In this document: positions 2,264 to 8,455 of the stretch, in pieces
Position numbering within the stretch: position 1 is the stretch's first letter
Layout: every line of letters starts with the position of its first letter
DNA from: Streptomyces sp. cg36
Lineage (GTDB): Bacteria > Actinomycetota > Actinomycetes > Streptomycetales > Streptomycetaceae
Length of the DNA: 64,000 nt
NCBI RefSeq assembly: GCF_041080675.1
Contig: NZ_CP163520.1
Span: 2,728,001-2,792,000, forward strand
Direction of reading: 5' to 3'
Position numbers and translations under genes: made by a program
Notes under the pieces: generated by a model
What the model was told of the DNA's origin: nothing
Databases searched by the model: none
Seen by the model: the letters and a program-made list of their open reading frames with translations, nothing else

Positions 2264-3295
2264 TCAGCGCGAGCGCCTGGTCACGAACTCCGCGAGCGCC
2301 AGCAGGTCGCCCGCCGCCCCGAGGTCGGGGACCGCCCTGGACAGCTCGCCCACCGCCCGGGCCATCCGGTCGGCCGCGTGGATCTGCGCCCAGTCCCGGC
2401 CGCCCGCCCGGTCCACCGCCCCCGCCGCCCGCCGCACCGCGGCGGCCCCCATCGGGCCCCGGTACAGCTCCGCGAGTTCGGCCGAGGCCGGGGTGCCCGA
2501 GGTCAGGGCGGCCACCACCGGCAGCGACTTCTTGTGCGAGGCGAGATCGGAGCCGGCCGGTTTGCCGGTCCGGCCGGGGTCGCCCCAGATGCCGATCAGG
2601 TCGTCGATGAGCTGGAAGGCGAGCCCCGCCTCCCGCCCGAACGCGTCGAGCGCCGACACCTCCTCGGGCTCCGCCCCCGCGTACAGCGCGCCCAGCGAGC
2701 AGGCGCAGCCCAGCAGCGCCCCCGTCTTGGCCATCGCCATGTCCAGGCACTCGTCCAGCGACACCTCCTGCGGGCCGCGCTGCTCGAAGGCGCAGTCGGC
2801 CTGCTGTCCGGCGCAGAGCTCGATGACGCAGGAGGCGAGCCGCGCCGAGGCGGCCGGGGCCGCCGGATGGGTGTCCTCGGCGAGCAGCCGCAGCGCCAGG
2901 GCGAGCAGGGCGTCGCCGACGATGATGGCGTCGGGCGTCCCGAACACCGTCCAGGCGGTGGGCCGGTGGCGGCGGGTGGCGTCCTCGTCGATCACGTCGT
3001 CGTGGAGCAGGGTGAAGTTGTGGACGAGTTCGACGGCGGCGGCGGCCCGCAGCGCGTGCTCGGTCCGGCCGCCGAGCGCCGCGGCGGCGGCGAGCACCAG
3101 GGCGGGCCGGATGGCCTTGCCCGCCTGTCCGGCGGCGGGCGTGCCGTCCGCGTGCTCCCAGCCGAAGTGGTACATCGCGACGCGCCGTATCGAGCCGGGC
3201 AGCGACTCGACGGTGGCCCGCAGCCACGGGTTCACCGCCAGCCGGGTCCGCTCCAGCAGGTCGACGGCCTCACGTCCCTCGACGGCTTCCCCCAT
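2264..3295 (-). CDS. Polyprenyl (isoprenyl diphosphate) synthase, probable encapsulin cargo
   Basis: The core enzyme has about 343 residues. The first aspartate-rich motif HDDVID is near residues 98-103 and the second, DDLIGIW, near 231-237. The basic GKAIRPALVLAA motif near residue 59 marks a trans-prenyltransferase making GPP, FPP or GGPP from IPP and DMAPP. Family 2B encapsulin loci commonly pair the shell with terpene cyclase or polyprenyl synthase cargo that carries a long disordered, Pro/Ala-rich N-terminus. The start is uncertain. ATG 3295 gives only the catalytic core, TTG 3301 is better spaced from GAGAGG, and the same frame is open back to 3451. The upstream DNA (3296-3600) encodes a Pro/Ala/Gly-rich repeated peptide in a different frame. 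Confidence 0.85.
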   Translation of the reverse strand: MGEAVEGREAVDLLERTRLAVNPWLRATVESLPGSIRRVAMYHFGWEHADGTPAAGQAGKAIRPALVLAAAAALGGRTEHALRAAAAVELVHNFTLLHDDVIDEDATRRHRPTAWTVFGTPDAIIVGDALLALALRLLAEDTHPAAPAASARLASCVIELCAGQQADCAFEQRGPQEVSLDECLDMAMAKTGALLGCACSLGALYAGAEPEEVSALDAFGREAGLAFQLIDDLIGIWGDPGRTGKPAGSDLASHKKSLPVVAALTSGTPASAELAELYRGPMGAAAVRRAAGAVDRAGGRDWAQIHAADRMARAVGELSRAVPDLGAAGDLLALAEFVTRRSR

Positions 3296-3505: not shown

Positions 3506-3675
3506 TCTCGAACGCCCCTACCAGCCAAGGCTGTTACCCGGGCGCCCGCGCCCCTGCCCGTACGGGCGCGGCTTCCCTGTGGCGCGCGCATCCGGCGGCG
3601 CGCCCCGCCGGCTGTGTCGTTGCCGGGCGGGCGGCCCGCCGACCTCCCCGTCGCGGGCCGCCCGTCCGGGGTCTC

Positions 3676-4368
3676 TCAGCGCCAGCGGCTGACTTCGACG
3701 TTTTCGAGGACGCCCAGGGCGTCGGGGACCAGGATCGCCGCGGAGTAGTACGCCGTCACCAGATACGAGATGATCGCCTGCTCGTCGATCCCCATGAACC
3801 GCACCGACAGACTCGGCTCGATCTCGTCCGGGATCCCGCTCTGCCGCAGCCCGATCACACCCTGCTCGTCCTCACCCGTACGCATACAGATGATCGACGT
3901 CGTCCGCTCCGCACTCAACGGGATCTTCCCGCACGGAAAAATCGGCACCCCCCGCCACGCCGGCAGCCGATGCCCCTCGAAATCCACCGACTCCGGCACC
4001 AGACCCCGCTTGTTGCACTCCCGCCCGAACGCCGCGATCGCCTTCGGATGCGCCAGGAACAACTTGCTCCCCCGCCGCCGCGACAACAGCTCATCCATGT
4101 CATCAGGACTCGGCACCCCGTCATGCGGCTGCAGCCGCTGACTGTAATCACAGTTCGCCAGCAACCCGAACTCCCGGTTGTTGACCAGCTCGTCCTCCTG
4201 CCGCTCCCGCAACGCCTCCACCGTCAGACGCAACTGCTGCTCCGTCTGATTCATCGGCTGGTTGTACAGATCCGCCACCCGGCTGTGAACCTTCAGCACC
4301 GTCTGCGCCACCGACAGCTCATACTCACGCGGCGCACCCTCATAATCCACATACGTATGCGGGATCAC
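3676..4368 (-). CDS. Family 2B encapsulin shell protein, C-terminal (HK97-fold) part
   Basis: The product has 230 residues and starts at GTG 4368 with [20 protein letters not shown]. It contains the conserved [56 protein letters not shown] and [17 protein letters not shown] segments of family 2 encapsulins, virus-derived HK97-type capsid proteins that self-assemble into protein nanocompartments. In the usual gene this part is continuous with the cyclic-nucleotide-binding part. Here the upstream ORF stops at TGA 4365-4367, which overlaps this GTG by four bases (GTGA). It is either translationally coupled or the product of a one-base frameshift. It ends 380 bp before the polyprenyl synthase core. 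Confidence 0.82.
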
Positions 4369-5072
4369 GCCTCACCCACATGACCCGCCGCCAGATCAAT
4401 GGCCGCCTCACCGTACTTGTTCGTCCGCTGGTCCGGCACCAGCGCGAACCCCGCCAGATGCTCCCCCAGCCCCGTCGCCCGCTCCGCCAGGTTCAGCACA
4501 TCCGCCCGCGACAGCACCAGCACCGTCACCGCCGTCGCCGCCCGCGCCGTCGACTCCCACCGCGCCGCCTCCGACACCAGCGCCTGCTCCCCCAGATGCG
4601 CCCCGTCCGCCAGCACCCCCAGCACCGCCTCACCCCCATAGGGGCCCGCACCGATCAGCTCCACCCGACCGTGCGCCAGCAGATACACCGCATCCACCGC
4701 ACCACCCGCCGACGCCAGCACCTCACCCGCCGCGAACTCCCGCTGCACACACCGCGCCGCCAGCTCCCCCAGCACCGCCTCGTCCTCAAACCCCCGCAAC
4801 GCCGGCAACTCCCCCAGCTCCGCCGGGATCACCGCCACCCGCTCACCCGTCTGCACAAACGTGATCTTCCCGTCCCCCACCGCATAACTCAGACGCCGGT
4901 TCACCCGGTACGTACCACCCTGCACCTGCACCCACGGCAGCATCTTCAACAGCCACCGCGACGTGATCTCCTGCATCTGCGGAACCGACTTGGTCGTCGT
5001 CGCCAGATTCCGCGCCGCCGCCGTACCAAGACTCTGCTGCGCACGGTTCTCGGGTGATGTCTCGACCGACAT
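4365..5072 (-). CDS. Family 2B encapsulin, N-terminal part with cyclic-nucleotide-binding-like domain
   Basis: The product has 235 residues. ATG 5072 follows GAGAGGGAATCAC, a good ribosome-binding site; longer in-frame starts lack one. Residues 1-90 ([20 protein letters not shown], then the strand-rich [14 protein letters not shown]) form the N-arm and first part of the HK97 fold. Residues about 90-215 form a Crp/cNMP-type beta-roll ([43 protein letters not shown]) that in family 2B shells is displayed outside the capsid. The ORF ends in AAGHVGEA and a stop, exactly where normal proteins continue into V/I-PHT. Neighbours support a terpenoid-precursor nanocompartment. Confidence 0.82.
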
Positions 5073-5231: not shown

Positions 5232-5254
5232 AACTTGCACACAAGATGCAAGTT
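5232..5254. promoter_or_regulatory. NsrR-type 23-bp box upstream of nsrR
   Basis: Perfect inverted repeat AACTTGCA (5232-5239) / TGCAAGTT (5247-5254) with a 7-bp spacer. Length and AA...TT ends match Streptomyces NsrR boxes. It lies just before nsrR, so autoregulation is likely. Confidence 0.65.
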
Positions 5255-5269
5255 ATTTACGGTGCAGTC

Positions 5270-5728
5270 ATGAGGTTGACGAGATTCACGGACCTGGCGC
5301 TGCGCGTGCTCATGCGCCTGGCTGTCGCGGACGAGGGCGACCGGGAGGCGCCGCCCACCACCCGCGAGGTGGCCGAGACCATGCGGGTGCCCTACACGCA
5401 CACCGCGAAGGTCGTCGCCAAGCTCCAGCACCTCGGCCTGGTCGAGGCCCGGCGCGGGCGCGGCGGCGGACTCGCGCTCACCCCGGCGGGCCGCCGCGCC
5501 TCGGTCGGCGGGCTGGTCCGCGAACTGGAGGGGCCCGGTGACGTGGTGGAGTGCGAGGGGGCCGTGCCGTGCCCGCTCAACTCCGCGTGCCGGCTGCGCG
5601 GCGCACTGCGCAGCGCGCAGGAGGCGTTCTGCGCCTCCCTCGACCCGATCACCGTCGCCGACCTCGTCACCTCACCGACGGGCCCGCTGCTCATCGGCCT
5701 GACGGGCGGACGCGGCCGGGCCGGCTGA
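5270..5728 (+). CDS. nsrR: Rrf2-family nitric-oxide sensor NsrR
   Basis: The protein has 152 residues. The N-terminal winged helix begins MRLTRFTDLALRVLMRLA. Three cysteines, near residues 95, 101 and 107 (ECEGAVPCPLNSAC), have the C-x5-C-x5-C spacing that ligates the [4Fe-4S] cluster of Streptomyces NsrR. The cluster reacts with NO and DNA binding is then lost. ATG 5270 is preferred over ATG 5246 because 5246 lies inside the operator palindrome; the ribosome-binding site is weak. The flavohemoglobin gene directly downstream carries its own NsrR-like box, which strongly supports the name. Confidence 0.9.
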   Translation: MRLTRFTDLALRVLMRLAVADEGDREAPPTTREVAETMRVPYTHTAKVVAKLQHLGLVEARRGRGGGLALTPAGRRASVGGLVRELEGPGDVVECEGAVPCPLNSACRLRGALRSAQEAFCASLDPITVADLVTSPTGPLLIGLTGGRGRAG

Positions 5729-7961: not shown

Positions 7962-8455
7962 AAAGAGGAGCTGTCCGCCTTCAAGGCGGGGATCAAGCGC
8001 GAGGAGTTCGACAATGCCATCTCGGCCGTTCTGGCCGGAGAGGTGCGGCACCTCCTGGTCTGGACACTCGACCGGCTGAGCCGCCGGGGCATGGGCCAGG
8101 TCGGCCAGGTCCTCGACCAGTTCGACGAGCGGGGCGCGCGCCTGCTGGCGCACATGGACGGCCTGGACAGCAGCATCCCGCAGCACCGGGGGCTGTTCGC
8201 CTGGCTGGCCGAACAAGCTCGGCCGGAGTCCTACAACACCCCGACGCGCACGCGCAGGACCAAGGCCGAGAAGAAGACCACCGGGGCCTGGCCGGGCGGC
8301 CAGCCGCCGTACGGCCTACGGGTCCGCAAGGGGAAGTGCTCGACGGAACGCCACCCCCGGGAGTACAGGACATCGCGCCGGATCGCCGACGCACTGCTCG
8401 CCGACTCTCCGACGGAGTCCATCGCCGACGCGCTCGACCGGTTCACTGAACGGCC
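7926..8455 (+). pseudogene. Degenerate serine recombinase/integrase fragment
   Basis: The frame reads REGLTVRKVWKEELSAFKAG, then HLLVWTLDRLSRRGMGQ and TTGAWPGGQPPYGLRV, the hallmark stretch of serine recombinases between the catalytic domain and the start of the recombinase domain. The catalytic-serine N-terminus is missing: an in-frame TGA precedes the fragment and the left side is replaced by an inverted copy of its own sequence. The C-terminal half after RFTERP is also absent, replaced by the 3' end of the convergent XRE-type gene. It cannot encode an active enzyme and marks a decayed integrative element. Confidence 0.75.

Follow-up and report, generated by a model that had tools for sequence, protein, structure and literature searches.

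The window, a stretch of 64,000 nucleotides, carries a family 2B encapsulin shell gene whose reading frame is broken, and the gene as assembled is not an intact member of that family. It is best explained as a normal family 2B shell gene, encoding the shell protein in one piece, from a bacterium resembling Streptomyces. From comparisons of sequences within and between genomes, we conclude that the break is probably a one-base consensus error left behind in a repeat and not a mutation, a reading to which we assign a probability of roughly 0.9.

Both pieces of the gene lie on the minus strand. The first open reading frame (ORF) starts at an ATG whose first base is position 5072, encodes 235 amino acids, and ends in HVGEA followed by a TGA at 4367-4365; the second opens in the next frame at a GTG (4368-4366), encodes 230 amino acids, and ends at 3676. 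The seam is thus the four bases GTGA (4368-4365), in which the stop of piece 1 overlaps the start of piece 2, and the arrangement described in a first-pass annotation of this DNA is confirmed in the sequence. Piece 1 (4365 to 5072) comprises an N-terminal arm and a cyclic-nucleotide-binding-like domain, the latter matching PF00027 over residues 111-198 (62.4 bits); the N-terminal stretch ahead of it has matches to family 2A shells as well. Piece 2 (3676 to 4368) is the HK97-fold (SrpI-like) shell domain (PF19307, 426.1 bits). Against NF041163, the NCBI family 2B shell model of 450 positions, piece 1 covers positions 1-222 (286.6 bits) and piece 2 covers positions 224-450 (449.4 bits). The cut-off of 400 for this model is set for the whole protein; piece 2 passes it alone, and piece 1 falls under it because it is only a piece of the protein. 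The solved relatives 9bhu, 9bix, and 9bje each match both pieces, with residues 13-238 of the 9bhu shell covered by piece 1 and residues 241-468 by piece 2. Since the pieces lie back to back on NF041163 and on 9bhu, they make up one shell gene that is complete except at the seam. The annotation's assignment to family 2B is therefore borne out by NF041163, PF00027, and PF19307, and the alignment with family 2B shells that it had proposed places the two pieces end to end on NF041163.

The features that define family 2B are otherwise in place: a SrpI-like HK97-fold domain, an inserted (E-loop) cyclic-nucleotide-binding-like domain, and an adjoining cargo gene. What the assembly as given lacks is one continuous polypeptide, owing to the break at 4365-4368. 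The adjoining gene (2264 to 3295, minus strand) is unbroken and encodes a polyprenyl synthase of the kind that family 2 encapsulins carry as cargo (PF00348, 198.4 bits; NF041169, 497.6 bits against a cut-off of 450). A relative of this synthase is present at 74 of 80 loci used for comparison below. On the other side of the shell gene, at 5246-5728, lies an Rrf2-type gene. By extension from the family as described in two reports, this neighboring polyprenyl synthase would be the cargo of the particles (PMC8346489, PMC12407261). Elsewhere in the window, at 8043-8449, ORF translations in two frames resemble, by eye, fragments of a serine recombinase.

We compared the seam with 109 related loci, made up of 29 same-genus loci and the 80 just mentioned, which were kept from 581 encoding a relative and of which all but one are titled Streptomyces. 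The shell gene is a single ORF through the seam in all 109. Relative to the two pieces, the loci carry one extra seam residue, mostly valine, as seen in the 97 for which seam residues were printed. A survey of the genus found shell matches in 382 of 392 genomes, and the best-scoring matches, which do not include this genome's own, all lie in open frames of at least 468 amino acids. We also looked for natural splits by two protein searches with length limits that excluded full-length shells, taking the best 120 of 611 matches and the best 120 of 5105, and inspected 29 of these 240 short proteins (17 from the first search and 12 from the second). Many of the 17 shortened family 2B proteins (including P0005 and P0012-P0022) have what by eye seem to be out-of-frame tails, the position of which varies from protein to protein, and some carry the label partial. 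Such shortened database entries could be mistaken for split shells.

Within the same genome (9.02 Mb in 3 contigs), the coding sequence recurs almost unchanged at C1:695133-696502, a second copy with 1366 of 1372 aligned positions identical. The two copies differ by four substitutions in one short cluster and by two one-base gaps. At the seam the second copy reads straight through, and the window copy is one base shorter in the alignment; about 300 bases past the seam it is the second copy that loses one base, where the window copy is whole. Each copy is thus whole at the other's break, and the break in the window lies within a near-identical repeat of its own genome, as would be expected of a residual assembly error. 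Similarity between the copies breaks off close to the coding-sequence boundaries, and only coding sequence is shared between the second copy and the window, as after gene conversion. The second copy is followed, some 100 bases downstream, by a gene for geranyl diphosphate methyltransferase (NF041943; L044:9133-11466, C1 about 695133-697466 for the region). No terpene cyclase match (PF19086) was found near the second copy, the genome's six such matches lying elsewhere. Two further, divergent shell copies have long unbroken frames of 556 and 508 amino acids. A third relative of the shell gene is a decayed remnant that has lost internal parts (C1:8319780-8320722; L046:9780-10722); it adjoins a transposase-family match at C1:8319414-8319704.

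To place the break against the rest of the assembly, we screened the 432 kb surrounding the locus for frame junctions by comparison with two genomes of the same genus, in both directions, using ORFs of at least 100 amino acids with coding-like base composition. With queries from genome G129, two junctions were found in this genome over 198 genes and 214,284 nt, one in the shell gene and one in an accA-type biotin carboxylase gene. With queries from G023 there were three over 177 genes and 189,099 nt. One of these is again the shell gene; the other two fall at low-identity N-terminal ends with continuous translations and represent start-region differences, not breaks. The possibility that the assembly is poor throughout was rejected, since these two and three junctions are no more than the raw counts of 4, 3, 2, and 2 from the four control directions. 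Both clear frame breaks in the 432 kb fall in genes with a near-identical second copy.

In Streptomyces coelicolor, two characterized acyl-CoA carboxylase complexes have their alpha subunit in common, the product of accA1 or accA2 (PMC13118682). The broken biotin carboxylase gene here has a 99% identical second copy at C1:5399452-5401217 (L227), and both copies, that one and the one at C1:3068780-3070715 (L226), are broken in frame. Aligned over 1776 positions, the pair shows 4 gap openings and 18 substitutions, with most substitutions in the last 65 bases; leaving out this divergent tail, 3 substitutions and 4 gap openings remain over 1697 positions. In three control genomes the corresponding pairs, compared over about 1750 bases, show no gap and 0, 14, and 31 substitutions. 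Loss of both accA copies would presumably be lethal, and if that is so, the breaks in them must be errors.

Other repeats of this genome also differ by small gaps. Among 25 pairs of near-identical transposase-family loci, two of which are overlapping, identical stretches of one place, we counted 51 substitutions and 47 gap openings over 31,545 aligned nucleotides. Control loci gave 24 substitutions and 12 gap openings (in 9 of 45 pairs) over 40,868 nt in genome G058, 6 substitutions and 2 gap openings over 25,440 nt (29 pairs) in G007, and 20 substitutions and 2 gap openings over 14,693 nt in a mixed set of 13 pairs from six genomes. The pairs in this comparison are not independent of one another, and few repeat families stand behind the controls. 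Four of the six 16S genes (L197, L198, L199, and L200) carry differing letters at a single GCGCCGGC site, and L200 among them also shows small gaps within a conserved region; all five 16S genes of control G129 are identical. These 16S differences are likely assembly errors. In other repeats of this assembly small gaps exceed the controls, and in mostly single-copy DNA frame junctions do not, a pattern expected of residual error.

The motif GCCGGC occurs in 17 of the 54 distinct difference contexts in this genome's repeats (L206-L227, L044, and window 3675-5045), against about 1.8% expected, an expectation that is somewhat low because longer differences have contexts of more than 15 bases and both copies were looked at. 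Because one motif accompanies differing letters in unrelated repeats, we infer a base-calling artefact, and the strain might modify its DNA at GCCGGC. As the cause of the seam itself, a GCCGGC-linked error is not supported: the seam has no such site.

Together, these observations point to the following account. The base missing at 4365-4368 would be a leftover one-base consensus error of an assembly that would rest on long reads. Such an error would persist here because the coding sequence is present twice in near-identical form, so that the reads that could correct it would not be uniquely placeable. Some points weigh against this account. Motif-linked errors do not explain the missing base, given a seam without GCCGGC; gaps between copies also occur in control G058, with its 12 openings; and insertion sequences and rRNA copies can truly differ. 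In its favor, repeats are a known weak point of polishing: according to the Polypolish report, short reads align unreliably there and errors are often left standing (PMC8812927). A one-base indel, real or from sequencing, was among the explanations offered in the first-pass annotation, and it is this one that the 109 unsplit loci, the second copy, and the gaps in other repeats support.

The same indel could be real, in which case the gene is a fresh pseudogene or still yields piece 1, with some of piece 2 perhaps made through reinitiation at the GTG in the overlap. Several family 2B shell genes occur per Streptomyces genome, so one may be spare; the two unbroken divergent copies and the decayed remnant here are examples. 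Other shortened family 2B proteins exist in databases. A real deletion, however, means that both shell copies, otherwise only four substitutions apart, each lost a base recently and independently, and that the same double event took place in both accA copies. At one to three junctions per 214 kb, the clear-junction rate of the 432-kb block, the chance of at least two junctions in the two shell copies is about 0.0001-0.0007 if junctions are treated as independent. We therefore regard a real deletion as unlikely.

A natural two-part shell, in which the base is truly missing and coupled translation yields two chains that assemble into a working shell, was the novelty suggested by the first-pass annotation. 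The cut does fall in the linker that joins the inserted domain to the remainder of the shell fold behind it, a place that might tolerate a break (PMC8346489), and stop and start overlap. A database protein from the 5105-match search, P0128 (230 amino acids, 11 member sequences), even starts at the same residue as the second ORF and spoke for a recurrent natural split. In the genomes closest to P0128 among the matches listed (99% and 98%), the sequence is encoded inside open frames of 469 and 491 amino acids, and a recurrent split was rejected on that ground. The overlap, for its part, is expected by chance: we removed one base at each position of each piece and checked the next in-piece stop against ATG, GTG, or TTG in the true frame, and the stop overlapped a start in 357 of 576 cases for piece 1 (62%; 126 further positions gave no in-piece stop) and in 510 of 606 for piece 2 (84%; 78 further positions without one). 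Overlap being so common after a one-base loss in this gene, the coupling-like appearance adds no evidence. With none of the 109 related loci split at the seam, nor the second copy, the suggestion of a two-part shell is not supported, and we consider it very improbable.

Programmed frameshifting, by which a one-base backward slip at the seam would fuse the pieces in part of the product and so give the mixture of split and fused products that the annotation had also entertained, fares worst and is close to negligible: by inspection the slip would yield residues found in relatives, but any one-base loss gives the same residues upon such a slip, the seam shows no slippery heptamer of the form X XXY YYZ, and no slip is needed in the second copy or in the 109 loci, all continuous there. 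Even taken together, a natural two-part shell and programmed frameshifting have only a very small chance of being correct.

If the break is a residual consensus error, as we favor, it has little biological import, the gene being an ordinary encapsulin shell gene. The case carries a caution of more general use, namely, that a near-identical second copy should be sought in the genome before a split gene is called a new architecture.

The break resembles the residual repeat errors of long-read bacterial assemblies described in PMC8812927, where small errors sit in near-identical repeats and other DNA is clean; the cases described there are long-read assemblies, and a long-read origin of the present genome is only presumed. 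As for the particle, the two-component encapsulins Sl-Enc1 and Sl-Enc2 of Streptomyces lydicus are likewise Streptomyces family 2B shell proteins, and they are reported to form mixed shells of two complete proteins, each with both domains (PMC12407261). Unlike Sl-Enc1 and Sl-Enc2, the window locus is one protein's gene cut into two pieces. A further close counterpart is the family 2B shell (NF041163) that has a polyprenyl transferase as its cargo (NF041169), with which the window locus shares the same two domains, their order, and the adjoining cargo gene, the sole difference being the one-base frame break in this assembly.
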